Virus record (IMG/VR): IMGVR_UViG_3300030105_002848
Location: 1 to 26,397 of that record
Length of the DNA stretch: 26,397 nucleotides
Direction: 5' to 3' (one strand)
Source: a virus
In this document: positions 4,005 to 15,406 of the stretch, one piece after another
Layout of the letters: each line of letters begins with the position of its first letter
Numbering within the stretch: position 1 is the first letter of the stretch
Position numbers and translations under genes: made by a program
The notes under the pieces: model-generated
Told to the model about the DNA's origin: nothing
Database searches by the model: none
What the model saw: only the letters and a program-made list of their open reading frames with translations

Positions 4005-5765
4005 ATGAATGAAGCCGACTTGGGATATTTCTTTGAAAATATCCATGACGATTGCAGGGTTCCATGCCCTGAATGCAGTACAGAAAGAAAGAAAAAAAAC
4101 ATAAAAACACTTAGTGTGACCATCGATGGTGGCGATTGTTTATACCAATGTCATCACTGCGGCTTGTCAGGACGCTACAACAAGCCCTCCATTCAGACGC
4201 AAGTCAAACCACAAAAAGTGAGGGCTATCTCAGTGCCAAGCGCATCCAATCAAGAACTTATTAACGAATATTTACTCAGCCGAAGTATCGACCCCTTATC
4301 TGTAACAAGTTACTCAGTGGTTTCAGGGACAAAATACTTCAACGGGTCTGGTGAAATGGATGCAGTTGGTTTTGTTTACGGGGATCGTGAGGCTGTGAAG
4401 TGGCGATCCATTCAGGGTAAGAACTTTACTCAGGATGGGGCGGCAAGAACACTGTGGGGCATTGATCAGGTCAAAGAAGATGCCAAGGATATATTCATCG
4501 TTGAAGGTGAGACTGATCTCCTAGCCTGTGCATCATCAGGTCTTGAGAACGTGGTGAGTGTGCCTAATGGTGCGCCTCAGAAGGTGAGCAACCGAAAGGT
4601 TGATCCAGAAGAGGATAACAAGTTTGCCTACGTCTGGGCGGCTAGAGAACAGCTAGAGAAGGCTGAACGCATTATCCTTGCTACCGATCAGGATGAAGCG
4701 GGTATTGCCCTTAGCGAGGAACTGGCGAGGAGAATAGGTAGGGCTAAGTGTTGGACTATTGAGTATCCAAATGGATGCAAAGACCCCAATGATGTCCTTA
4801 AGCATCATGGTGCTGAGGCTGTCAGAAAGATGATGGAAAGTGCCAAGCCTGTACCTCTTGAGGGTGTTTATTCTGCGGATGATTATACTCATGATATCGA
4901 GCATCTTTACACTGAAGGCATTGTTGGCGGTGCTTCCACAGGACTTGCGAGTGTTGATGGATTGTTCACCGTTGTTCAGGGGCAGTTAAGTATAGTGACT
5001 GGAATTCCGGGAAGCGGGAAGTCCGAGTTTATTGATCAGCTTATGGTTAACTTGGCAAGAAGAGAGGGATGGAAGTTCGCCATCGCTTCGTTTGAGAACC
5101 CGCCACCACTTCACATTGCAAAGTTATCTGAGAAGTATGTTGGCAAACCATTCTTTGAGGGGAAAACTGAAAGGATGAGTAGTGACGAGAAGACTGAGGC
5201 TCTTGACTGGGTAACAGATCACTTCTTATTCTTAGAGCAGCGCGGTGGTGACTCAGCTACCATCGACAGCATCCTAGATAGGGCAAAGCAGGCGGTAATG
5301 CGCTTGGGTGTTCGCGGTTTAGTTATTGATCCTTACAATTACATTCAACAAAGCAGCAAGGTAGACAATGAGCATCAAGGCATCAATGAGATGCTTACTC
5401 GCCTTGTTACCTTTGCTAGGGCGCATGATGTACACATATGGTTCATTGCTCACCCTGCCAAGATGATGACCAATCAGGATGGTTCTACGCCCGTACCTAA
5501 AGGGATGAACATCTCAGGGTCAGCGGCATTCTTTGCCAAGGCTGACTTGGGTATCACTGTACATCTAGACAAGGAAAAGAATGTTGAGATTCATTGTTGG
5601 AAGTGCAGGTTTAAATGGGTGGGAACAACTGGTACGATCAATCTAGATTACGACATTCCAACAGGGCGTTACTCTGATATCTCTTACGGTGATTTTGTAC
5701 CAAGTGTCGGCAGTGGCGGTAGAAGCAACGACTGGCATGAGACTGGCGATGACTGGGATTTCTGA
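4005..5765 (+). CDS. Bifunctional DNA primase-helicase, T7 gp4-type (586 aa)
   Basis: Three domains follow in order. A zinc ribbon uses C21, C24, C49 and C52. The TOPRIM primase domain has FIVEGETDLLACA near residue 165 (catalytic Glu) and ILATDQDEAG near 225 (metal-binding Asp pair). The DnaB-like helicase domain has Walker A GIPGSGKSEF near 335, Walker B VIDPYN near 442 and the motif HIWFIAHPAKM near 480. It makes primers and unwinds DNA at the fork, as T7 gp4 does. Length (586) agrees with T7 gp4 (566). GGAG lies eight bases before the ATG. Zn-binding, primase and helicase residues are all present, so the enzyme looks intact. Confidence 0.93.
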   Translation: MNEADLGYFFENIHDDCRVPCPECSTERKKKNIKTLSVTIDGGDCLYQCHHCGLSGRYNKPSIQTQVKPQKVRAISVPSASNQELINEYLLSRSIDPLSVTSYSVVSGTKYFNGSGEMDAVGFVYGDREAVKWRSIQGKNFTQDGAARTLWGIDQVKEDAKDIFIVEGETDLLACASSGLENVVSVPNGAPQKVSNRKVDPEEDNKFAYVWAAREQLEKAERIILATDQDEAGIALSEELARRIGRAKCWTIEYPNGCKDPNDVLKHHGAEAVRKMMESAKPVPLEGVYSADDYTHDIEHLYTEGIVGGASTGLASVDGLFTVVQGQLSIVTGIPGSGKSEFIDQLMVNLARREGWKFAIASFENPPPLHIAKLSEKYVGKPFFEGKTERMSSDEKTEALDWVTDHFLFLEQRGGDSATIDSILDRAKQAVMRLGVRGLVIDPYNYIQQSSKVDNEHQGINEMLTRLVTFARAHDVHIWFIAHPAKMMTNQDGSTPVPKGMNISGSAAFFAKADLGITVHLDKEKNVEIHCWKCRFKWVGTTGTINLDYDIPTGRYSDISYGDFVPSVGSGGRSNDWHETGDDWDF

Positions 5766-6183
5766 TATTCAGGTAAATGAGACAGGCACAAGTGAACTGC
5801 ACAAGCGGCACAGAACTTCGCTTGAGCAAAGTGACGGTGCGTTTCTTAGGGTTAAGGTAACTGATCAGCTATACATTGATCGGTTACTTTTAACCAAGAA
5901 GATTGACGTAGGCCATCACGCTACTGCCGAATGGATTCTCAATCAAGCGGCAAGGGCTAACGTCTTTGTCAAAACTCCTTCCATGAGCGATACCTTTGGT
6001 GGTGGTAGTGGTGACAAGTACACCAACGGACTTCTGATTTTTTCTCGTACAATGAAAAGGATAAACAATAAGTTCGGAGATAGCGGTGAGAAGATTGTGT
6101 TTGATATTGTTGTTGATGACCTGAACATTAAGGATAAAAAAGTTCTGCAAACATTCAGGAAAATCTTAGATTACCTCGCATGA
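5749..6183 (+). CDS. Phage protein, unknown function (144 aa)
   Basis: The start is uncertain; the ATG at 5749 overlaps the helicase stop by 17 bases, and an in-frame ATG at 5737 is an alternative. No strong ribosome site is visible, so coupling to the helicase is likely. The middle has a helical segment, TAEWILNQAARANVF, preceded by LYIDRLLLTKKIDVGHHA, then a Gly-rich linker and a C-terminal helical half. The arrangement of a conserved helical pair before a Gly/Ser loop resembles unnamed phage proteins near replication genes. A DNA-binding role is possible but I see no clear helix-turn-helix. Confidence 0.6.
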   Translation: MTGISDIQVNETGTSELHKRHRTSLEQSDGAFLRVKVTDQLYIDRLLLTKKIDVGHHATAEWILNQAARANVFVKTPSMSDTFGGGSGDKYTNGLLIFSRTMKRINNKFGDSGEKIVFDIVVDDLNIKDKKVLQTFRKILDYLA

Positions 6184-6344
6184 CCTACTCCGACATTATG
6201 CGAGTCTACTGTCTGGGCGGAGATGCATGAAATACGGCCTTACTGTGAGCAGGTTAATAGCAGTAAGGATATAACCTACGGCTGTGTTTTGTGCGTCTGT
6301 GGTGTTTGCAGTATCCCTTATTAACAACAACTTAACAGCAATGA

Positions 6345-6369
6345 AACTCTACCGGGACGACCGGGAGTT
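6345..6369 (+). other. Hairpin in gap 6184-6398
   Basis: AACTC-TA-CCGG pairs with CCGG-GAGTT around a GACGA loop, with a two-base bulge. There is no T-run after it, so it is not a standard terminator. The surrounding gap holds only tiny frames: a 16-codon one starting by ATGA overlap at 6180, a 15-codon one chained to it by another ATGA overlap, and a 14-codon one at 6341. None has convincing support. Confidence 0.4.
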
Positions 6370-6398
6370 ATGCTACAAATATTAACAGGTTAAATATA

Positions 6399-6572
6399 AT
6401 GAGCAAAGGTTCAAAACAACGCCCGACAGACAGGGTTAGCTTTAACAATTCTTGGGATAAAATTTTTGGGGAAATCTCTAAATCCTCAAGAATTGAGGAA
6501 GAGAACTATCAGCTAGAAAAAGCTGAGAAAGAATACTTTCAGGTGAAAAAAGCGATTGACGAGTTAAACTAA
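6399..6572 (+). CDS. Small conserved phage protein (57 aa)
   Basis: The frame from the ATG at 6399 encodes MSKGSKQRPTDRVSFNNSWD, then KIFGE and a charged C-terminal helix. The opening 'M-S-K-G-S-x-x-R-P' followed by 'N-N-x-W-D-x-I-F-G' is a pattern I recognise from many phage genomes, where a small protein of this size sits near replication genes with no known function. It ends right at the two-way terminator. Confidence 0.75.
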   Translation: MSKGSKQRPTDRVSFNNSWDKIFGEISKSSRIEEENYQLEKAEKEYFQVKKAIDELN

Positions 6573-6573
6573 A

Positions 6574-6609
6574 AAAGCCCCACCCCTCAGTCAAAAGGGA
6601 TGGGGCTTT
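6574..6609. terminator. Bidirectional terminator between convergent units
   Basis: AAAGCCCCA at 6574-6582 pairs perfectly with TGGGGCTTT at 6601-6609, with further CCCT/AGGG pairing inside. Read on the minus strand it is followed by six T, making a good terminator for the minus-strand operon. On the plus strand it is weaker but closes the replication block. Confidence 0.85.
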
Positions 6610-6622
6610 GTAGGGTGTTCAT

Positions 6623-6895
6623 TTATACTGAGTTTAAAAATTCGGTTAGCTTGATGAGTATATCTTTAGCCTCCCGTCTAGCCTCTTCTCGAAAGCTAGT
6701 CGCTGTAGTCAGTATCATTCTAGCTATCTCACGATCCTCCAAGCCTTCTAAGACCTCCATTTTGTTATTGGAAATGTGCTGAAGAACCTTCTCGACACCC
6801 CAGTCCTCAAAATCATCGCCCCAGTAAGGGAACTGGTGAATTAGATATTGTTTACTAGCCCAGATTATATCGCTTGTTTTGGCCTCTTCAATCAT
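6623..6895 (-). CDS. Helical phage protein, unknown function (90 aa)
   Basis: ATG at 6895 has GGAG six to seven bases upstream. The protein is mostly helical, acidic at the start and Arg/Glu-rich in the C-terminal half (TTATSFREEARREAKDILIK). It contains a Trp-rich region, YWGDDFEDWGVEKVL. No family recognised. It is the last gene of the long minus-strand unit before the terminator. Confidence 0.65.
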   Translation of the reverse strand: MIEEAKTSDIIWASKQYLIHQFPYWGDDFEDWGVEKVLQHISNNKMEVLEGLEDREIARMILTTATSFREEARREAKDILIKLTEFLNSV

Positions 6896-6906
6896 GCGAA
6901 TCTCCT

Positions 6907-6975
6907 TTAATTAAAATCGTAAGTGTCAGGGTTTGGGTCTGGCTTAAAATTAGCGCACTCACGTTTCTGTGTCAA
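6907..6975 (-). CDS. Possible tiny frame or frameshifted tail (22 aa)
   Basis: After the zinc-ribbon gene's stop, the +1 frame encodes KRECANFKPDPNPDTYDFN and then a stop. This looks like the end of a real protein. It can be reached from a TTG at 6975 (poor ribosome site) or by a +1 frameshift near the end of the upstream gene. Chance is not excluded. Confidence 0.3.
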   Translation of the reverse strand: MTQKRECANFKPDPNPDTYDFN

Positions 6976-7423
6976 ACTCCATGATCTTGCTTATCTTGAC
7001 CACGCAGTTCCTGTCCCAGAGTTGGATGCTAAGTTCCTGATCTAGCTCATCCATCGAATCAAATTCTCGATCAAAATACACGCAATCATAGCCGCCATCA
7101 GTTCCAATGGGGATGCGCTCCATCACATTAGCAACGTACTTGCTCTTGGATTCAAAAAGATCATGGTCTTCTCTTAACGTCTTGAACATAATCCTAGTGT
7201 CACCTGTGCAGGTCAGGCAGTATGCCCGACTGTATTGAGATTCAATCGAATTCCCTCTTTCATATTGGAACAATGTGCGAGTGTACGGAAGCCCACTGCC
7301 CTCGTTTGGCACTTGCCACTCCCCATCATTCCAGACTGGGGAGCGTGTCATGCCTACGTTCTCACTGCCGCAATAGGCGCAGGTAGCTATGATTCTTTTG
7401 CCTTGCAAGTTAACTGTTCGCAT
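6959..7423 (-). CDS. Zinc-ribbon phage protein (154 aa)
   Basis: Two CxxC pairs, C15/C18 in ATCAYCGSENV and C69/C72 in AYCLTCTGD, suggest a four-cysteine zinc site. The second half is acidic, with strand and helix segments and the ending KISKIMEFDTET. I preferred the ATG at 7423 over the one at 7429 because AAGG is then nine bases upstream instead of three. The gene overlaps the end of the XRE regulator. The Cys pairs may bind DNA or another protein; I do not recognise a named family. Confidence 0.65.
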   Translation of the reverse strand: MRTVNLQGKRIIATCAYCGSENVGMTRSPVWNDGEWQVPNEGSGLPYTRTLFQYERGNSIESQYSRAYCLTCTGDTRIMFKTLREDHDLFESKSKYVANVMERIPIGTDGGYDCVYFDREFDSMDELDQELSIQLWDRNCVVKISKIMEFDTET

Positions 7424-7796
7424 TGTCATTCGCCTTATTCGTTAGCATGTTGTAGAACTTGCGGTAGAACGGAATTGAATCTTGCTTGGGTATCATTCCC
7501 ATTTCACTTTTAAGCTTATTCATAAGCCTAGAGTTTCTGATCGTTGGATCAAGCGGAACGCCATTTTTCTCTAGCAGTGAATCGATAGACACGCTATAGA
7601 ACTCAGCAATGTTTTTGATCGTGGATACTTTGGGCATAGACTTCAAGTTGAGTACCCGATTGACGGTTGCTTGCGGTACACCAATGACTCTTCCCAGATC
7701 GCCTTGAGTCATGTTGTGATTCCACATCAGTGTCCGAACATTGCTTGACAGTGACTCTAGGTCTTTTGCTTCTTTAGCTTTATTAATACTAATCAT
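7410..7796 (-). CDS. XRE-family transcriptional regulator (128 aa)
   Basis: A classic XRE/Cro-CI DNA-binding domain covers residues 17-75: helix 2 TQGDLGRVIG (30-39) and recognition helix PQATVNRVLN (41-50), then STIKNIAEFYSVSIDSLL. The C-terminal 50 residues are short and basic and lack a LexA/CI self-cleavage motif. The ATG at 7796 is just after the stop of the gene before, with AGGA eight bases upstream. As the only clear sequence-specific DNA-binding protein in the window, it is the natural candidate to bind the AGGAA-N2-TTCCT sites, but nothing in the sequence proves it. Confidence 0.88.
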   Translation of the reverse strand: MISINKAKEAKDLESLSSNVRTLMWNHNMTQGDLGRVIGVPQATVNRVLNLKSMPKVSTIKNIAEFYSVSIDSLLEKNGVPLDPTIRNSRLMNKLKSEMGMIPKQDSIPFYRKFYNMLTNKANDNANS

Positions 7797-7800
7797 TTTC

Positions 7801-8121
7801 TTATTCCTTATCTGTTGATTGGTTGTTTGTTTTTTCAATTGCAGGCATTTCTTTTTGCAGCCTAAGCCAGTGTTCCCGCATAATAGTTACCAACTTACCT
7901 TTCTTGACTGGCGATGTAAAATTATCATCCACAGAGAAGTTGACTTCTATTGTGCCATCGCTGTCGGTTGCTACCCCCTCAACAACGGCCTCGCAATCCA
8001 CATCAATGGTGAACATCTTTATTGATCCATCCTTGTTTAGCAGGTCTTTGCCATCTTCACTTGACCTGAAAAATTCAATCTTACTAATTGTTACCCATTC
8101 AAAATTTTCATCCTTCATCAT
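7801..8121 (-). CDS. Strand-rich phage protein, unknown function (106 aa)
   Basis: Start ATG at 8121 overlaps the preceding stop (ATGA), with GAGG five to six bases upstream; a GTG at 8142 is less likely. The protein alternates acidic strands, for example WVTISKIEFFRS, SIKMFTIDVDCEAVVEGV and TIEVNFSVDDNFTSPV, and ends in a helix. This suggests a small beta-sandwich or barrel. No motif or family recognised. It lies directly upstream of the XRE regulator in the same operon. Confidence 0.65.
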   Translation of the reverse strand: MMKDENFEWVTISKIEFFRSSEDGKDLLNKDGSIKMFTIDVDCEAVVEGVATDSDGTIEVNFSVDDNFTSPVKKGKLVTIMREHWLRLQKEMPAIEKTNNQSTDKE

Positions 8122-8417
8122 ACTATCCTCTTGTTTAACCACCGTCCTGAGAATTTCTCAGTAGGTGTAGTGAATGCAGACTTGATGCCTGCGCCTTTGG
8201 TTGAACCGCCCCTGATGACTCGCTTGCCCTCGTTATCATAGTTCTTATTGATTGGTCTGAGATGCGAATCATAGACCTCATAAACATTATAGAGTCGGGT
8301 TGCCATCGTACTAGCCGACAGCCCCGATACTTTCGCATAGTGGCTTGCTGTATATAGATGCCCCATGACTAACTCAGGATGACTACCCCTGAACGGTAGC
8401 AGTTTCGCTGATGCCAT
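8118..8417 (-). CDS. Small helix-turn-helix-like phage protein (99 aa)
   Basis: The ATG at 8417 has GGAGAG eight bases upstream; the ATG at 8432 has none. Residues 22-44 (YTASHYAKVSGLSASTMATRLYN) fit a helix-turn-helix, and the C-terminus reads TPTEKFSGRWLNKRIV. This 'T-P-x-E-x-x-S-x-x-W-L' ending is shared with small phage proteins I have seen near early genes. DNA binding is an inference. It is a second candidate for binding the palindromes. Confidence 0.6.
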   Translation of the reverse strand: MASAKLLPFRGSHPELVMGHLYTASHYAKVSGLSASTMATRLYNVYEVYDSHLRPINKNYDNEGKRVIRGGSTKGAGIKSAFTTPTEKFSGRWLNKRIV

Positions 8418-8607
8418 CGCCTCTCTCCTCATTGTTGTAGGTTTCTATTATATACCCTGTCTCTGCGCCAACGTCATGATGCCTCCTGAGCGCAGATTTC
8501 ATGGCTTTGACAAGACCTTCTTGGTCGATATACCGCTGACCATTTGCTCGACAGTTCATTGCATATAGCTGTCGTGTAGAACTTAGTGTCCTGAAATACT
8601 TATCCAT
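8383..8607 (-). CDS. Small phage protein, unknown function (74 aa)
   Basis: ATG at 8607 follows GGAG with an eight-base spacer. The protein is basic in the first half (LSSTRQLYAMNCRANGQRYI) and includes the helix LVKAMKSALRRHHD. Its end overlaps the next gene. No family recognised. It is the first gene after a 112-base gap, and that gap (8608-8719) holds a TTAAC-TG-GTTAA inverted repeat at 8626-8637 and a GCCCA/TGGGC hairpin at about 8694-8712, so transcription may restart here. Confidence 0.6.
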   Translation of the reverse strand: MDKYFRTLSSTRQLYAMNCRANGQRYIDQEGLVKAMKSALRRHHDVGAETGYIIETYNNEERGDGISETATVQG

Positions 8608-8719
8608 TTGTCTATCTCCTAATTATTAACTGGTTAACAACAACTGCGTTACATAACCATTGGTTTATAAAACACTGCAATAGGTACATCCTACGCCCAC
8701 CTTTCGATGGGCTTCTGTG

Positions 8720-10234
8720 TTATGCGGCAAGCAGATCGTCACTTGCCACGATGTAATCAATTCCAGACCTTTCAAGGCTTTTGCGAGTAGAGTAATTAGG
8801 GTGCTGAACCAACACTAGTACAGCCCCTGCATCAGCGCAGATGTCATAATCCTCAGCAGTCATCCAACCATCAGTGAAAATAAGATGAAGGTCACAGTCT
8901 ATGCCGTTATTTTCTAACCACTCAACAGCAGATGCCATGTAAGTCCCCCCGCCCTCTTTGATCTCGATATCCAGAAGTTCAGAGCCAGACATAACCTCAT
9001 CAACTTGACGCACATCATCCCCACACTGAATAAGAACAGCACCAGATTTAGGCTCTAAAGAATCAACAAGGGATGCAGCCTCCTGAAAGAATCTGTGGAC
9101 GGTATCTGAGAAGCGCATGCATGAATAGCTAGTATCAGCAGTAAATGCAATGCGATTAAACGTACCCTTGGTAGTCGGGCTAACAACGCCAGTATTAATA
9201 AAGCGTCTGCGATTAATACGCGCCCAACTTGGTTGGCTTCCTGCTGATTTCGCAGTTGCACGATTGGCTAACTCAGCAGGCCAGTTAGTTGACGAGACCT
9301 TAGACGCTCTGGCTCTGCCGCCACTGGCCGCTATGCTAGTGCTTGGCCTCTTCTGATCATGATCCTCACGCTCCAACGAGACATTGAAATCGTCAATCGC
9401 GTAATCTATCTCGCGCTCAATGGCTTTATCGTCAGCATTCTTTTGCTCTGCAACCTCAGCTTCGCTTCCCTCATATTGAGGCACTAAATGTATGTCATGA
9501 CCTTCACTTGTCGAGCCTTCCAGTTGAGAAGGTTCAGAGCCAGTGCCGCTATCTTTATCGCTAGAATCGTCAGGGCTTTCTGCGTCAGGCTGTTCGCTTT
9601 TACCTTTACTGCCATCGTCAGAGTTATCTGAAGAATCCCCATCAGTAGCCTTATCGCTAGGCTTATCGTCTTGATTAGAACTTTCATCACCACTGTCATT
9701 GCCGCCATCTTTATCCCCACCCTTTTTAGCTTCGTCACTCCAATCGAGATTTAGGTACATGTCATCTATCCACATCTCCCTATTCACGCCCTCTTGTAAA
9801 ATACCGCCTTCGATCATCTCCAACCCATGCGCGATCAAATCGGCATTGATGATTGCATCCCCGACTTCATTCCAGAGCCTTGGACAGAAAGGGATGGTTC
9901 CATTGCCCACCCTTCGGAAGTAGCCTCTATCGGCATATGCCTTGCCGCGTGAGCAATGCTTTAGCATTATATGCGCTACCTCATGACCTAACAGAAAAGC
10001 CCTCTGGCTAGCGTTAGGCAGGCTCCTAAAGAACACCTCGTTTATGTAGATGTGATACCCATCAGTCGCGGCAGTCGGCACAGCAGATGTCCAGATGACG
10101 TTAGTGCCTGCCAGAATCGTGTAGTGTACCCGTATCGTTGATTGCAGAACTGAGGTAGCACTCAGGAAAGGTTTCGACCGTAGCATGTCAGGATTTTCGC
10201 ACTCAAAAAGCACCTTTGCGTTGTAATTAGCCAT
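8720..10234 (-). CDS. Metallopeptidase-VWA protein, partner of MoxR ATPase (504 aa)
   Basis: Numbering here counts from the GTG at 10237; the ATG at 10234 (residue 2) is preferred because AGGGG is then seven bases upstream. The N-terminal domain has LLGHEVAHIMLKH with H85, E86 and H89, and LWNEVGDAIINADLI with D126, the zinc-site layout of DUF2201 metallopeptidases. A very acidic Asp/Ser linker covers 175-240. The C-terminal VWA-like domain keeps a MIDAS site: DTSYS at 368-372, GGGT at 429-432, TDG at 455-457. All key residues are present, so it looks functional. In bacteria such proteins pair with MoxR ATPases as remodelling or chaperone systems. The start overlaps the MoxR stop, so the two are co-translated. 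Confidence 0.85.
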   Translation of the reverse strand: MANYNAKVLFECENPDMLRSKPFLSATSVLQSTIRVHYTILAGTNVIWTSAVPTAATDGYHIYINEVFFRSLPNASQRAFLLGHEVAHIMLKHCSRGKAYADRGYFRRVGNGTIPFCPRLWNEVGDAIINADLIAHGLEMIEGGILQEGVNREMWIDDMYLNLDWSDEAKKGGDKDGGNDSGDESSNQDDKPSDKATDGDSSDNSDDGSKGKSEQPDAESPDDSSDKDSGTGSEPSQLEGSTSEGHDIHLVPQYEGSEAEVAEQKNADDKAIEREIDYAIDDFNVSLEREDHDQKRPSTSIAASGGRARASKVSSTNWPAELANRATAKSAGSQPSWARINRRRFINTGVVSPTTKGTFNRIAFTADTSYSCMRFSDTVHRFFQEAASLVDSLEPKSGAVLIQCGDDVRQVDEVMSGSELLDIEIKEGGGTYMASAVEWLENNGIDCDLHLIFTDGWMTAEDYDICADAGAVLVLVQHPNYSTRKSLERSGIDYIVASDDLLAA

Positions 10235-11364
10235 CACACTGCCCCTATATAATGTTCATTGAACTGCTTAATCAAAGGGCTGTTGGTAACCCAGTCATTC
10301 GCAGCCATAATCTTTTGCATGCGCTTGCCTCCATTGATCTTAAGATCGGCAGAGGTCATGCGTAAAATGTATAAAAATGCGCGGTCAGCACTTTCTGAGC
10401 ATGATGCTGAGGCCATCGCGTTATTTGATGCAAGTAGCTGAAAACCTGTGTCGCTAGGAACCAAACAAGATTCTGGGTCACGCTGTATGTCCTCACCGCT
10501 TGGCACTTTATCTCGCAATGCAGAGTAACTGCACAGAATCTCAGTGGCTTTTTTGCCGATATTAGATTCAATCATGCGCTTAATCACTGGCTCCTCAATA
10601 GACGCACCCTGACCATGAACATTGAGGTAATTGGTCAGATGCACAGAGGCATTAGTCAGTGACCGAAAAGAGTTATACTGCGCGTATTCGGTTGGCGGCT
10701 TATCAGCAAAAAAAGTTTCTTGCTCTTCATACTGCAAAGCACAAGCAATCATCAAGGGATGCACGTTATTTTCATCTGCCCATACAGCCCATCCACTGAC
10801 GCTTTGCTGTATCTCATAGATGCAAACAGTATCAGTTAGGTGCGCTAGCAATCTATTAGCACCGCTCCTGTCGCTTGTGCGATTCCCTGCGCCACAAACA
10901 AACCATCCGCGAGGGATCGGCCACCCGCCCAAGCTGTGGGATTTTCGATCCATTAAATCACGCGCAACTTTTTGTACAGAGTTATCGGCTTGCGGGGCTT
11001 CATCCAAGAAAACAACTCCATACTCTTTGCCTGTCTGCTCAATCTTAAGCAGTAAAGGCGGCTTGGTATATTCCATTTGATGCCTACCTGACCCATCTTT
11101 TACAGGTAGGGGAGTGCCTGCGAATTCCTGCGCGTCACGACCTGCCAGTTTCTCAGTAACGAATCCAAGATCATCAGCAGTAAGGCCAAGTGATTGGGCA
11201 TAAGCCTTGCGTAGGTTGTAGCTGACAAACCACGTTTTGCCGCCACCCGTACCGCCCAATAGTATTATTGGTTGCGGCTCAGAAGTTGCAAAATGGTACT
11301 GAAAGGTTTCTTCAATCTCCGCGAGAGTAGCTAGGGTGTGGCCGCTTTCAATTTTATTAGACAT
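10234..11364 (-). CDS. MoxR-type AAA+ ATPase (376 aa)
   Basis: Walker A is GGTGGGKT (37-44), Walker B is VVFLDEAP (117-124), sensor 1 is GAGNRTSD (N161), and the R171 region (ANRLLAHL) fits the arginine finger. The spacing matches MoxR-group AAA+ proteins, and the C-terminal third is helical. MoxR ATPases use ATP to remodel protein complexes with a VWA-domain partner, as in RavA-ViaA. Here the partner is the next gene, overlapping by three bases. AAGGA lies eight bases before the ATG. What the pair acts on in a phage infection is unknown. Confidence 0.88.
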   Translation of the reverse strand: MSNKIESGHTLATLAEIEETFQYHFATSEPQPIILLGGTGGGKTWFVSYNLRKAYAQSLGLTADDLGFVTEKLAGRDAQEFAGTPLPVKDGSGRHQMEYTKPPLLLKIEQTGKEYGVVFLDEAPQADNSVQKVARDLMDRKSHSLGGWPIPRGWFVCGAGNRTSDRSGANRLLAHLTDTVCIYEIQQSVSGWAVWADENNVHPLMIACALQYEEQETFFADKPPTEYAQYNSFRSLTNASVHLTNYLNVHGQGASIEEPVIKRMIESNIGKKATEILCSYSALRDKVPSGEDIQRDPESCLVPSDTGFQLLASNNAMASASCSESADRAFLYILRMTSADLKINGGKRMQKIMAANDWVTNSPLIKQFNEHYIGAV

Positions 11365-11389
11365 ATAATTATTCCTTAAGAGGTTAAGA

Positions 11390-12388
11390 TTAGTCGATCA
11401 GGTCGGGGAGCAAGCCCCCTGCCAGTTGAATGTTTGCGTAATCAATCTGCGTTTTAGTAACAGGCGCAGTAATCGCGGTGAGGTTTTTTCTTATTGATGT
11501 TGCGACATCAAGGGATTTTTGCCGAACAACGGGGTCATCATTCCAGATGTCGGTGGTTTTATTTGCGATGTGCAGGTCTAAATCGTCACAGATCGCCAAT
11601 ATCCTTGGGTCTTGGTCGTAAGCTTCGACCATGCCGCGCATCTTGCTACTATGGGTTTTCGCATGCTCAACAAGTGACTGGCTCAAACGCTTGCCAGTCG
11701 ATAGCTGAGTGATAATTAGCTCCATATGGCTTAAGCCATCCAACAATGATTGCGTTTTCGCCCCCTCCAACATTGCCGTTAATTCATCTTGCCCTGCTTT
11801 TGAGAACTTTTCAGCTAAGTGGACAGGCAACTGCATGTGGCTAATGTCGGCACTTTGTATACATTGTGGCGTTCCCACAGCAGTGACAAAGCGACCCGCA
11901 AGTACCGCACCACTAACTAGTATGTCGGATATGTCTATCTCCAAATCTCTGACCTCGCGCTGAATACTTGGGAGCATGTCATCCCATATTGCCGCAAGAC
12001 CGTCAGATGCTGCTTGTGCGTCATTTTTAAGCAACATTAGGTCATTGTAGATGCCCTCGATAGATGTCACTGCCGCTACCCTTTTGCCTTTACTTTGCTG
12101 CCCTTCTTTTGCCTGAGACAGTGCCATAGTGTGAGCGTAAAGATAGGTTCGTAGCAGTGACTGTCTGCCCTTCACAAAGTCGATTGGCTTTTGATAGGGC
12201 GTTAAACGCTCGACAATACGCGCTAGCCTAGCCTTTTCTGCATGTATCTGAGTACTACGCAAAAGCTTGTTGACTGCCGCAATCAGGGGTTTAAGGCCGT
12301 ATTCTGTGGATATATGCACCTGAATGGTCATTAGACTATTGCAAGCCCGTTCGTTTATTGTTTTTTGATTCTGCCCGATTAAATTCAT
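11390..12388 (-). CDS. Helical protein of MoxR/VWA cassette, unknown function (332 aa)
   Basis: The protein is nearly all helix by inspection, with no signal peptide, membrane segment or catalytic motif. It is the first of three tightly linked genes; the MoxR gene starts 25 bases after its stop. GAGGG stands seven bases before the ATG at 12388. Two cysteines only. It could be the substrate adaptor, an assembly scaffold or the target of the MoxR-metallopeptidase pair. I do not recognise a family. Fixed order (this gene, MoxR, VWA) points to a joint function. Confidence 0.7.
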   Translation of the reverse strand: MNLIGQNQKTINERACNSLMTIQVHISTEYGLKPLIAAVNKLLRSTQIHAEKARLARIVERLTPYQKPIDFVKGRQSLLRTYLYAHTMALSQAKEGQQSKGKRVAAVTSIEGIYNDLMLLKNDAQAASDGLAAIWDDMLPSIQREVRDLEIDISDILVSGAVLAGRFVTAVGTPQCIQSADISHMQLPVHLAEKFSKAGQDELTAMLEGAKTQSLLDGLSHMELIITQLSTGKRLSQSLVEHAKTHSSKMRGMVEAYDQDPRILAICDDLDLHIANKTTDIWNDDPVVRQKSLDVATSIRKNLTAITAPVTKTQIDYANIQLAGGLLPDLID

Positions 12389-12429
12389 ATTACTGCCCTC
12401 GATTTTTTTAAAAAATAAGCTGTTAGTTA

Positions 12430-12447
12430 AGAGACCACGCGGCCTCT
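12430..12447 (-). other. Hairpin before the MoxR cassette
   Basis: On the minus strand AGAGGCC pairs with GGTCTCT (one G-U pair) around a GCGT loop. A T-rich run follows only some 15 bases later, so it is at best a weak terminator or attenuator between the small early genes and the cassette. Confidence 0.35.
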
Positions 12448-12543
12448 GGAAAGTTCAATAAATAAATAGCCTAGTCAGCTATCATCTGTTTATTCAGTTG
12501 CTTGCTTACTAAACCCATGAGATGATTTTTTATTCCATTTATT

Positions 12544-12729
12544 TTACGCAGACGATATAAGTCGTATGTTTTTACAACCAATAAACGTGCGCCCTGCCGT
12601 GTCGGTGCAGATATTGGTGGCATCCGTCCCCTGACCTTCGATGCACCTAACAAAACGGCCAGTGCGCTCAATGCCTAAGCTACAGGTGAATGCATGGGTG
12701 GGGTTTGATTTTGCAATTGCGTCAGTCAT
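12544..12729 (-). CDS. Small Cys-rich protein, unknown function (61 aa)
   Basis: Start ATG at 12729 overlaps the stop of the gene before (ATGA) and has GGAG seven bases upstream. The protein has four cysteines, in FTCSLGIERT, RCIEGQGTD, NICTDTAG and GCKNIRL. This layout could bind a metal, but no known zinc-finger pattern is met. The last third may be overlapped by another frame (see findings). Confidence 0.6.
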   Translation of the reverse strand: MTDAIAKSNPTHAFTCSLGIERTGRFVRCIEGQGTDATNICTDTAGRTFIGCKNIRLISSA

Positions 12730-13016
12730 GATTGATCTCCAATAACCTCAAAATTAAATAGGATGGGGTAGCCCGAATGAGAATCAGATGCAGGTATTTC
12801 TATCTCCATTTCGATGATCCCACTGGGCATTTCAACTTCTCGACTCTCACCATAAAGGCCCCCATCCATGTCGTAATAAATTTGAATGAGAGCGGCATCG
12901 TCATGCATGGAAGGGTTAGTAAATTTCGGCATCCATGCTTCAAGTCCATAGCAATGGGCATCGACAAACTTGCGGGCGATCTCGATTTTAGCGTTGACAC
13001 GTTCTGTGATTTTCAT
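12726..13016 (-). CDS. Acidic phage protein, unknown function (96 aa)
   Basis: The ATG at 13016 overlaps the upstream stop (ATGA) with AGAGG seven bases before it. An N-terminal helix (ITERVNAKIEIARKFVDAHC) is followed by strands such as ALIQIYYDMDGG and IIEMEIEIPASDS. No motif recognised. It is coupled to genes on both sides. Confidence 0.65.
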   Translation of the reverse strand: MKITERVNAKIEIARKFVDAHCYGLEAWMPKFTNPSMHDDAALIQIYYDMDGGLYGESREVEMPSGIIEMEIEIPASDSHSGYPILFNFEVIGDQS

Positions 13017-13384
13017 GCTATTACCTCTCTGCGTTCCATTAATTCGGTAACATCCTTGATTAGGACATCGTTTAAATTCTCAAGCTTGTCAGCATCGATA
13101 TTCTTAACTAGCCACCGCTGTACCTGACCATGACTTAACTCGTAATCAGTAGAGTTATATTCAACAAATGATGAGATCACAAATCGTCTAGCCTGCCTAT
13201 GAAATGTACTTTTCTTTTTGTCTTCAGAGATCCACGACCATTCAAGATTCCATTTGTCATACGCTCGATCAGTATAATCTCCGTCCAGATATGACCTGTA
13301 GAGCCTGCGAACTGGGTGATTATCGTCATTGATTATCTCGTCAATGTTGCTGAAATCTGTTGTTATTCCGCTGTAATTATCCAT
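13013..13384 (-). CDS. Charged phage protein, unknown function (123 aa)
   Basis: ATG at 13384 follows AAGGGG with seven bases between. The N-terminal 20 residues are acidic; the centre has Trp/Tyr-rich RAYDKWNLEWSWISEDKKKS, and the C-terminus is helical with repeated Leu/Asn/Asp. No family recognised. Being first after the double hairpin at 13424-13461 suggests its expression is set by that structure. Confidence 0.65.
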   Translation of the reverse strand: MDNYSGITTDFSNIDEIINDDNHPVRRLYRSYLDGDYTDRAYDKWNLEWSWISEDKKKSTFHRQARRFVISSFVEYNSTDYELSHGQVQRWLVKNIDADKLENLNDVLIKDVTELMERREVIA

Positions 13385-13423
13385 AGTGTTTCCCCTTAGT
13401 GGAGTTGATTAGTTGGCTACCAG

Positions 13424-13461
13424 ACGCGCTACCTCAGCGCGTTTCGGCCACGCCAGTGGCC
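13424..13461 (-). other. Two tandem perfect hairpins between minus-strand genes
   Basis: ACGCGCT pairs with AGCGCGT around ACCTC (13424-13442), and GGCCAC pairs with GTGGCC around GCCA (13446-13461). On the minus strand they begin ten bases after a stop codon. No T-run follows, so they are more likely processing sites, mRNA stabilisers or attenuators than a terminator. Confidence 0.65.
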
Positions 13462-13471
13462 TCGTCAGTGG

Positions 13472-13711
13472 CTAGTAAATAATATCTAATTCACCAGTAT
13501 CGCGAAAAACCTTCAGCGTTTCTTGCAGCTCATCATGGGTTAATGCATCTACGTCTCTGCCGAAAATGCCGAATTCCTTCAACTCAGAGAGAAGCTTGAC
13601 TAGATCGCGCTTGGCACGACAAAAAGCCCAGAGAGCGATTTGATCGCCACCCATTGCGTATAGCCATTCTGTGTGGAGTTGCTCGTAGTTCATATTTTTT
13701 AAATCTCTCAT
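13472..13711 (-). CDS. Small phage protein, unknown function (79 aa)
   Basis: ATG at 13711 overlaps the preceding stop (ATGA), with GAGG seven bases upstream. The protein is helical with aromatic residues near the start (YEQLHTEWLYAMGG, IALWAFCRAKRDL) and an acidic C-terminus. No family recognised. It precedes the tandem hairpins. Confidence 0.65.
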   Translation of the reverse strand: MRDLKNMNYEQLHTEWLYAMGGDQIALWAFCRAKRDLVKLLSELKEFGIFGRDVDALTHDELQETLKVFRDTGELDIIY

Positions 13712-13835: not shown

Positions 13836-13964
13836 TTATGCTCCGTTAATAACTGTGAAATAAGTAGCGGTGATGACAAATGCCCACCAAGTTAATAATG
13901 CAGGCGGGTACTGATCTAGCATGCGGCCACTGATGACCTGAAATCTAAAAGTAAAATTGATCAT
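13836..13964 (-). CDS. Tiny single-span membrane protein (42 aa)
   Basis: First gene of the long minus-strand operon. The ATG at 13964 follows GAGGG with an eight-base spacer and the stop is two bases before the next ATG. The N-terminal half is polar and basic, and residues 22-40 (ALLTWWAFVITATYFTVIN) form one likely membrane helix. Short early membrane peptides in phages often disturb or guard the host envelope, but that role is only inferred. Confidence 0.6.
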   Translation of the reverse strand: MINFTFRFQVISGRMLDQYPPALLTWWAFVITATYFTVINGA

Positions 13965-14023
13965 GATTTATTCCCTCGATATGTAGTTAACAATTGAGAT
14001 TGATTTTTATTCCATGACTGCGT

Positions 14024-14242
14024 GGCTATTGCTAAAACTACTAAGTAGTAGGCTTGGCAATAACCACCCGTTGGACTGGGTGGATATCAGCGGATTTTGC
14101 CGCTCGATCTCCTCTCGTTAGAGGCCATCAGGTGTCCTATCGCGTAACGGGCTAGTCGTATTGACATCAAAGCCGTGCGCCCTTGCTAGGGGTAGTCTCT
14201 CTACTCGCATCGATGGAGCCTTGATGCTTTCGCCTGACTAGC
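14024..14242 (-). ncRNA. Structured RNA candidate (about 220 nt), orientation probably minus
   Basis: Eight stems fit without conflict. TATTGC/GCAATA (14027-14032 with 14057-14062) encloses CTACT/AGTAG (14038-14051). Then come CCACCC/GGGTGG (14064-14083), AGCGG/CCGCT (14089-14104) and CCTCT/AGAGG (14111-14124). A 7-base closing stem GCTAGTC/GACTAGC (14151-14157 with 14236-14242) encloses CATCAA/TTGATG (14165-14170 with 14221-14226), CCCT/AGGG (14080s: 14180-14191) and GTAG/CTAC (14192-14204). Read on the minus strand, 14226-14233 gives GC-GAAA-GC, a GNRA tetraloop, which favours that strand. It ends about 60 bases before the first gene of the minus operon, so it may be a leader or a separate RNA. 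I do not recognise a known class. Confidence 0.6.
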
Positions 14243-14917
14243 GTTTCAAAAATTTGCAAATCCTTTGCATACATTCTTAGTCAACACTGTTCTCAAGAAG
14301 TTCAAAAATAAGTTCAATTAATTTGAATTAGTTTTTAGGCAGGGCTAAATCACTACCTATATAGGTGCTATGTAGAGGCTATATACTATCGAAATGAAGG
14401 CTAATACACGCTTGGGGTAAAAACTAAGTGGTTGATTTTAAAGGGGTTTTTAATAGGGGATCACGTTAGGTGCTGTAAAATATCCTTTAGAATCAAAGAC
14501 TTACAAGTGTTACCATAAGTAACAAAACGTCTGTAATCGATTTTAAGCGCGTTTAGGTAGTAGGGCATCGGTTTCTGGCACTGTCCCAGACAGGGCAAAT
14601 TAGAGGCTCTGAGCGGCATCGGCACTCTCGAAAATCATGGCAAATCAGCACTCAAATCGTACAAAAAATGATCAATATCAGGCCTAAACAGGGGCTAAAA
14701 ACAATAGGCACAGTCACTGACAAATCAACACAGAGGCATCTGCAAGGCTCGCTCTACTCATAACTATTTGGGAATAGCGTGGCATAGGCAATCAGCAATG
14801 GTCTTAGATCGCAACGTAGGCACGTTATAAGACGTTTGATGTTAGTTGTTATTCGCCCATTTATACACTGAAATGAGGCCTATATACTGGGGATATTCAC
14901 CACTGGAATTAGTAATT
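14243..14917. other. Non-coding region before terS
   Basis: No convincing gene. It holds a palindrome ACCTATATAGGT (14355-14366), hairpins TGTTAC/GTAACA (14508-14524) and CTGTC/GACAG (14581-14593), a repeat of GGCATCGG near 14563 and 14614, and a motif like AGGCTATATACT near 14375 and again near 14877. On the minus strand TTGACT stands near 14281 without a proper -10 box. A location between divergent early and late blocks and beside terS makes it a candidate for replication origin, packaging site or an extension of the structured RNA. Confidence 0.5.
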
Positions 14918-15406
14918 ATGAGCGGCACAAAATTGACTGGAAAGCAGAGAGCATTTGCCAGATGCATGGCTGACGGGATGACCCAAAGCGCGGCCTATCG
15001 AGAGGCGTATGATGCTGAGAATATGAGCGGTGCTGTTATCAGGAATGAGGCCTCCTTGTTGATGGCTCGCAGTGACATCACCATGACGGTTGAGAAGCTA
15101 ATAGGGGAAAGGGATAGGGCTATACTGGCTTCAGGCCTCTCTGACAGGGACCGCGTTCTGGAGCGGCTCAGAGGCTGGATCGATGACGCAGAGCCAACGG
15201 ATTCCAATAAGCTCAGGGCCGCTGAGTTGCTAGGTAAATCCGTGGGCATGTTCAAAGAAGTGACAGAGACAGTGTCAATAGATAGGGATTCTGAGAGCGT
15301 GGCATCTGAGCTAGAGCGCAGACTGGAGAGCTTGCTGTCAAAAAGTCAGGAGCAGGAAAGTGGGGATGTTGAGCCAGAAGATTTTGGGGAAGATGCGATC
15401 CACTGA
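14918..15406 (+). CDS. terS: Terminase small subunit (162 aa)
   Basis: The protein opens KLTGKQRAFARCMADGMTQSAAYREAYDA, the standard small-terminase helix-turn-helix, followed by NEASLLMARSDITMTVEKL and a C-terminal acidic coiled part. It recognises phage DNA and recruits the large subunit. I chose the ATG at 14918 because family homology begins right there; upstream in-frame starts exist but add an unusual tail. The ribosome site is weak. Unusually, it is separated from terL by a 392-base gap and one gene. Confidence 0.8.
   Translation: MSGTKLTGKQRAFARCMADGMTQSAAYREAYDAENMSGAVIRNEASLLMARSDITMTVEKLIGERDRAILASGLSDRDRVLERLRGWIDDAEPTDSNKLRAAELLGKSVGMFKEVTETVSIDRDSESVASELERRLESLLSKSQEQESGDVEPEDFGEDAIH

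Follow-up and report, generated by a model that had tools for sequence, protein, structure and literature searches.

Structured phage leader RNAs with GAAA/GAGUA hairpin modules: a probable uncatalogued family at the head of operons with predicted hammerhead ribozymes

Here, we have analysed a viral record of 26,397 bases from IMG/VR (the window, by which we mean its whole length) and found that positions 14024-14242 are a real, gene-free and structured element, with the minus strand as the one that matters. We consider it very probable (about 85%) that this element, with its margins (14020..14275), forms the 5' leader on the RNA of the minus operon and belongs to a family of structured leader RNAs in phages that is not yet catalogued. 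That leaders of this family, present at the same spot in several phage lineages, usually head operons with predicted hammerhead cuts suggests an RNA device serving transcription rather than one gene. Few phage leader RNAs modify transcription, put being the textbook case of one that works as RNA only, and the leader adds an RNA family missing from Rfam 15. A leader that recurs at the head of hammerhead-punctuated operons links such RNAs with the question of what hammerheads in phage operons are for, and leader and hammerhead operons in different phages make a testable system.

Setting and folding of the leader

The terS, terL, portal and capsid genes of the window lie rightward of 14.9 kb, while the minus operon on the left side encodes small uncharacterised proteins, a 332-aa protein, a MoxR-like ATPase and a DUF2201 metallopeptidase/VWA protein (Table 1). 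The leader sits between the minus operon and the plus-strand terS, which agrees with the location between divergent blocks given in an earlier note on this DNA. Its presumed ends were taken from the promoter-like block and the first ORF, and its size is ~220-250 nt. The only ORFs within 14024-14242 are 30-35 aa long and lack conservation, so the stretch is without a gene, as had been claimed. The 42-aa ORF begins 60 nt past the leader end, at the distance of about 60 bases noted before, and encodes what is probably a membrane peptide.

Table 1. Positions of the leader, its parts and neighbouring features (window coordinates unless a contig is named)
Feature	Position	Strand	Basis or remark
Structured 5' leader RNA of the minus operon (probable)	14020..14275	-	gene-free, fold z -3.5, homologous leaders in relatives
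GAAA/GAGUA (bulged-G type) hairpin module	14193..14240	-	descriptor match, covariance model, pair table
Upper hairpin of the module	14207..14227	-	pair table and fold
Alternative fold closed by 7-bp stem GCUAGUC/GACUAGC	14151..14242	-	minimum-energy fold
Long hairpin at the leader 3' terminus	14024..14064	-	predicted fold
Conserved promoter-like block AATTAAT..TTGAAC..AGAACAGTGTTGNCTAAG, presumed leader promoter	14260..14345	-	aligned with five relatives
First ORF past the leader, 42-aa peptide	13836..13964	-	relatives in L006, L022
Type I hammerhead ribozyme, flanked by the 79-aa and 123-aa genes	13418-13474	-	predicted cut after GUC (13423/13422)
Minus operon genes	8720..13711	-	include MoxR-like ATPase 10234-11364 and DUF2201 metallopeptidase/VWA protein 8720-10237
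terS (terminase small subunit), divergent from the minus operon	14921..15406	+	
Type III hammerheads	L121 4406-4459, L130 4256-4310, L131 1144-1197, L145 2440-2493	-	leader motif GAACTGAACGGC.CAG

The minus-strand fold of 14024-14242 has an energy of -76.8 kcal/mol (z -3.5; 0 of 200 shuffles equally good), and the plus-strand fold has a z of -2.7. In an energy scan across the whole window, the 200-nt pieces at the place of the leader ranked only 11th and 12th of 212. Energy alone therefore proves little, and we dropped the z-score as sole proof of the leader, several coding and terminator regions doing better. The compact multi-stem fold proposed earlier is thus borne out by the minus-strand z-score, but its energy is unexceptional. 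The best z-score in the window comes from a strong terminator-type hairpin at 6560-6620 (AAGCCCCA..TGGGGCTTTTTT), after the minus ORF 6623-6895. At the place of the predicted hairpin of the leader 3' terminus, L006, L016, L082 and L023 also have hairpins, of different sequence. A terminator-like site at the end of the leader was looked for in the window and not found.

The promoter-like block occurs once in the window and does not match the sigma-70 consensus; a second match to it, at L165 6449-6513, was rejected as AT-rich chance. Behind the leaders of L016, L082, L091, L092 and L023, the 42-aa gene is swapped for other genes, the first-gene types being the 42-aa peptide and the MNSAHLDY-, MRQIESE- and MDNYSGI-types. 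Since the gene behind the leader changes, the job of the leader appears untied to it, and among the relatives compared we found no single gene or pathway that consistently follows it. The reading of the element as a minus-strand leader RNA is backed by its position, by the conservation of the promoter-like block and by compensatory changes in homologous leaders.

The GAAA/GAGUA module and its relatives

In the window, the module consists of a lower stem (UAGUC/GACUA), an internal loop (GAAA/GAGUA) and an upper stem (GCAUC/GAUGC). The layout that window and relatives have in common, by eye, is lower stem-(purines)-GAAA-hairpin-GAGUA-(GAGA)-lower stem. The facing GAAA and GAGUA strands resemble an internal loop of the bulged-G (loop E/sarcin-ricin-like) kind. 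The minus-strand GAAA had been taken for a GNRA tetraloop. In the relatives, GAAA is instead one side of the internal loop, with covarying stems flanking it, and most likely the GAAA of the window is not a GNRA tetraloop.

A descriptor scan of 1.4 Mb, with a chance rate of 0.15 per window on both strands, located the module in the leaders of the window, L006, L016, L082 and L091 and at an intergenic site upstream of an ATPase gene in L161/L164; the other matches were scattered singletons. Since MAFFT misaligned the module in the most diverged members, pair counts were taken from a hand alignment. Every one of the 40 cells of the upper stem is paired, C-G/G-C and A-U/C-G/U-A exchanges being seen there, and in the inner lower stem A-U, U-A, C-G and G-C all occur. 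The covarying pairs for which the earlier note had proposed a search in homologues are thus present, as compensating changes in the module stems. A covariance model built from seven modules, with the window left out, matched the window at 14193-14241(-) with an E-value of 4.7e-4 (next best 2.1) and on the operon strand only; the pattern that recruited distant members was partly derived from the window, and L006 and L091 are independent of that pattern. At L161 4000-4110(-), in the intergenic region that immediately precedes the MoxR-like ATPase gene, there are two GAAA/GAGUA pairs, possibly nested.

The UAGUC of the window has two possible GACUA partners, that of the module itself and that in the GACUAGC further on. 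Because UAGUC can pair with only one copy at a time, the module and the 7-bp closing stem are mutually exclusive. By nearest-neighbour energies, in which the special stability of a bulged-G loop has no term, the closing-stem fold is better by ~12 kcal/mol. Comparative support belongs to the module fold only, which is not the minimum-energy fold of the window. The closing stem described earlier is therefore present in the predicted fold, but it lacks comparative support and competes with the module. It is conceivable from these predicted structures that the two folds act as a switch.

Close relatives were gathered by TerL and terS searches of IMG/VR. L002 is almost identical to the window across the leader, and a structured, gene-free leader occurs at the same place, behind the shared promoter-like block, in L006, L016, L082/L168, L091/L165 and L092/L166. 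L020, L022 and L023 have a longer leader at this location. The leaders of L006, L016, L082 and L091 can be aligned with each other and show double changes in 6 of 53 consensus pairs; those of the window and L006 are unalignable except for the module, the sequence diverging fast among relatives. The module is common to the window, four of the five same-place relatives and two further distant groups. A pattern from three lineages led to leaders of ~400 nt in L264, L211, L270 and L272, each with two to four GAAA..GAGUA hairpins. Of the 75 consensus pairs of these leaders, 24 show double changes, and the leaders of L270/L272 have blocks in common with those of L022/L023. In L211 and L270, terS (in L211 also terL) is on the opposite strand, the leader heads an operon of small genes, and the proteins are unrelated to those of the window. 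The layout of promoter-like block, leader, long operon and divergent terS is therefore found also in phages with unrelated terminases. The leader of the window occupies this position too, since it follows the promoter block, diverges from terS and precedes the operon, and it contains the module, both stems of which lie on the operon strand.

Among Rfam 15 families, covariance searches at gathering and relaxed thresholds gave no match to the leader, in keeping with the earlier statement that it belonged to no known class. No related leader was found by blastn (window leader against cultured phages, L264/L270 leaders against phages, L264 against plasmids) or by pattern scans of bacterial and archaeal genomes. 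By terminase comparison, the closest cultured phages are 023Pt_psg01, HTVC027P and DSL-LC04 (54-59% identity); in these and in HTVC023P, neither the module nor type I hammerheads were found. Many pattern matches around L198 (CCAGTGACTAAGACTCGAAAGCGT...) were rejected as coding, an open frame for a conserved-looking basic peptide running through them. A conserved block of ~165 nt with repeat-like AATGACTTACAG / AATGATTACAGTGACTTAG words lies between the leader promoter and terS in L016 (1465-1630), L022 (4617-4779) and L023 (4623-4785) and is a possible operator or origin.

Hammerhead ribozymes in the same operons

Hammerheads are known from phages (Perreault 2011, PMC3088659), where they are intergenic. 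The minus operon of the window has one, and the operons of relatives have arrays. The site in the window, a conserved intergenic element, has the CUGACGA, GAAA and GUC core together with stems I, II and III, and self-cleavage is predicted. A hammerhead model (R2) from which the window had been left out matched it (E 7.6e-10), as did a hand-made descriptor with 0 matches expected in shuffles; the RAGATH-1 hammerhead core aligned to it below cut-off, and the site is overlooked at Rfam gathering thresholds. In the leader at 14024-14242, descriptor and model detected no CUGANGA / GAAA / UH core with three stems. The earlier guess at a ribozyme thus holds for the operon, with a hammerhead 550 nt downstream, but not, as far as a hammerhead core is concerned, for the leader itself.

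Hammerheads on the operon strand were found in L006, L016 (2), L168 (2), L165, L166, L171, L172, L270 (4, one weak), L272 and L211 (9), so that nearly all leader-bearing phages have them, with a maximum of nine per operon. None were found in L161 or in L264, whose contig covers little of the operon. The nine model matches of L211 (6692-10865, plus strand) lie unusually densely in one operon of small genes. In a more distant group (L121, L130, L131, L132, L142, L145 and L160), a type III hammerhead lies exactly between a conserved leader and the first start codon; TerS in this group is ~50-55% identical. We found no description of the pairing of leader and hammerheads in the literature searched.

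Proposed function and alternatives

By analogy with known phage systems, we tentatively propose, at somewhat less than even odds, that the leader is a nut- or put-like RNA acting on RNA polymerase. Transcription would begin in the conserved block, at ~14280, and the leader would fold while emerging from the polymerase. The bulged-G hairpin module or modules could keep the leader with the polymerase, either directly, as in HK022 put, or via a bound protein, as in lambda nut, and the polymerase would thereby read on through the long operon in the face of terminators and hammerhead cuts, whatever the first gene. Still more tentatively, the leaders may form a large new, uncatalogued class that extends across unrelated terminases, heads operons whose transcripts hammerhead arrays would divide into pieces of gene size, is independent of the first gene and rides RNA polymerase or a dedicated protein via repeated bulged-G hairpins.

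HK022 put is likewise structured, lies close to the beginning of an early phage operon and does not depend on the first gene; its action reaches at least 10 kb and needs no tether through the transcript (PMC9378689). Since put acts untethered, hammerhead cuts would not abolish a put-like action. A put- or nut-like role is also consistent with the leader lying always directly behind the promoter-like block, before a long operon and divergent from terS. The repetition of the module two to four times in other leaders fits a binding scaffold, and RNA hairpins near a promoter are possible protein-binding sites as in lambda-type nut (boxA/boxB). On the other hand, put, which brings about factor-independent antitermination via the zinc-binding domain of RNAP beta', has ~70 nt and two stem-loops, while the leaders, of 220-450 nt with GAAA/GAGUA modules, are 3-6 times as long and are set apart from put by length and stem count. 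HK022 has two put sites, whereas the window has such a leader on one operon only. The intergenic module upstream of the ATPase gene in L161/L164 and the disagreement between the comparatively supported and the minimum-energy fold also speak against this role. The module is larger than boxB, and a nut site proper was rejected for the window leader, which lacks boxA (GCTCTTTA, up to one mismatch); a boxA-like octamer is present in some relatives only.

The main rival is that the leader, freed by hammerheads or host RNases, is a trans-acting RNA that, for example, binds a host or phage protein via its bulged-G hairpins. We regard this as rather unlikely. The type III hammerheads exactly at the border of leader and first gene in the L121 group would release such an RNA, and the multiple module copies, the length, the strong structure and the independence of the first gene suit it, but in the window group no ribozyme was found at the 3' end of the leader, and the sequence changes fast between relatives. 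The L121 group bears also on control of the first gene in cis, be it by a riboswitch or attenuator, as suggested earlier, by translation control or by protection of the 5' end of the mRNA. A 5' UTR ending ~60 nt ahead of the first ORF and two mutually exclusive folds would be expected of such a regulator; however, the hammerheads are predicted to sever the leader from its gene, homologous leaders precede differing first genes, and the leader end has no terminator-like site. Regulation of a single gene is unlikely because the first gene changes and relatives would cut the leader off.

The same neighbour reasoning that took hammerhead-neighbour (RAGATH) RNAs to new ribozymes could make the GAAA/GAGUA element a new self-cleaving ribozyme or a processing site that replaces hammerheads. 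RAGATH motifs are RNAs tied to neighbour genes of hammerhead and twister; the leader is likewise structured and beside hammerheads, and no RAGATH family in Rfam 15 matches it. The element occurs where relatives have hammerheads, namely at the end of the leader, as judged from the L121 group, and ahead of the ATPase gene, as judged from L161/L164 compared with L115. We nevertheless hold a ribozyme to be improbable, as no fixed cleavage-site sequence was seen, a leader may carry several copies, and an internal loop of GAAA and GAGUA is a frequent structural element for which catalysis is not required. That the stretch is GC-richer, hairpin-forming DNA without any RNA function (an operator, an origin or chance) seems very improbable to us. 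Both strands fold well, other parts of the window have energy z-scores as good, and relatives have the conserved repeat-like block between leader and terS, but the compensating changes in the module stems, the GAAA/GAGUA conserved unpaired on one strand and the covariance match confined to the operon strand argue against it.

Elsewhere in the window, there is a sharp mosaic breakpoint at ~8615, L170 being 99.9% identical over 5481-8621 and ~59% past there. A 29-nt inverted repeat (6832-6860 / 13470-13498; 97% complementary) overlaps two different coding regions and is perhaps a recombination scar.
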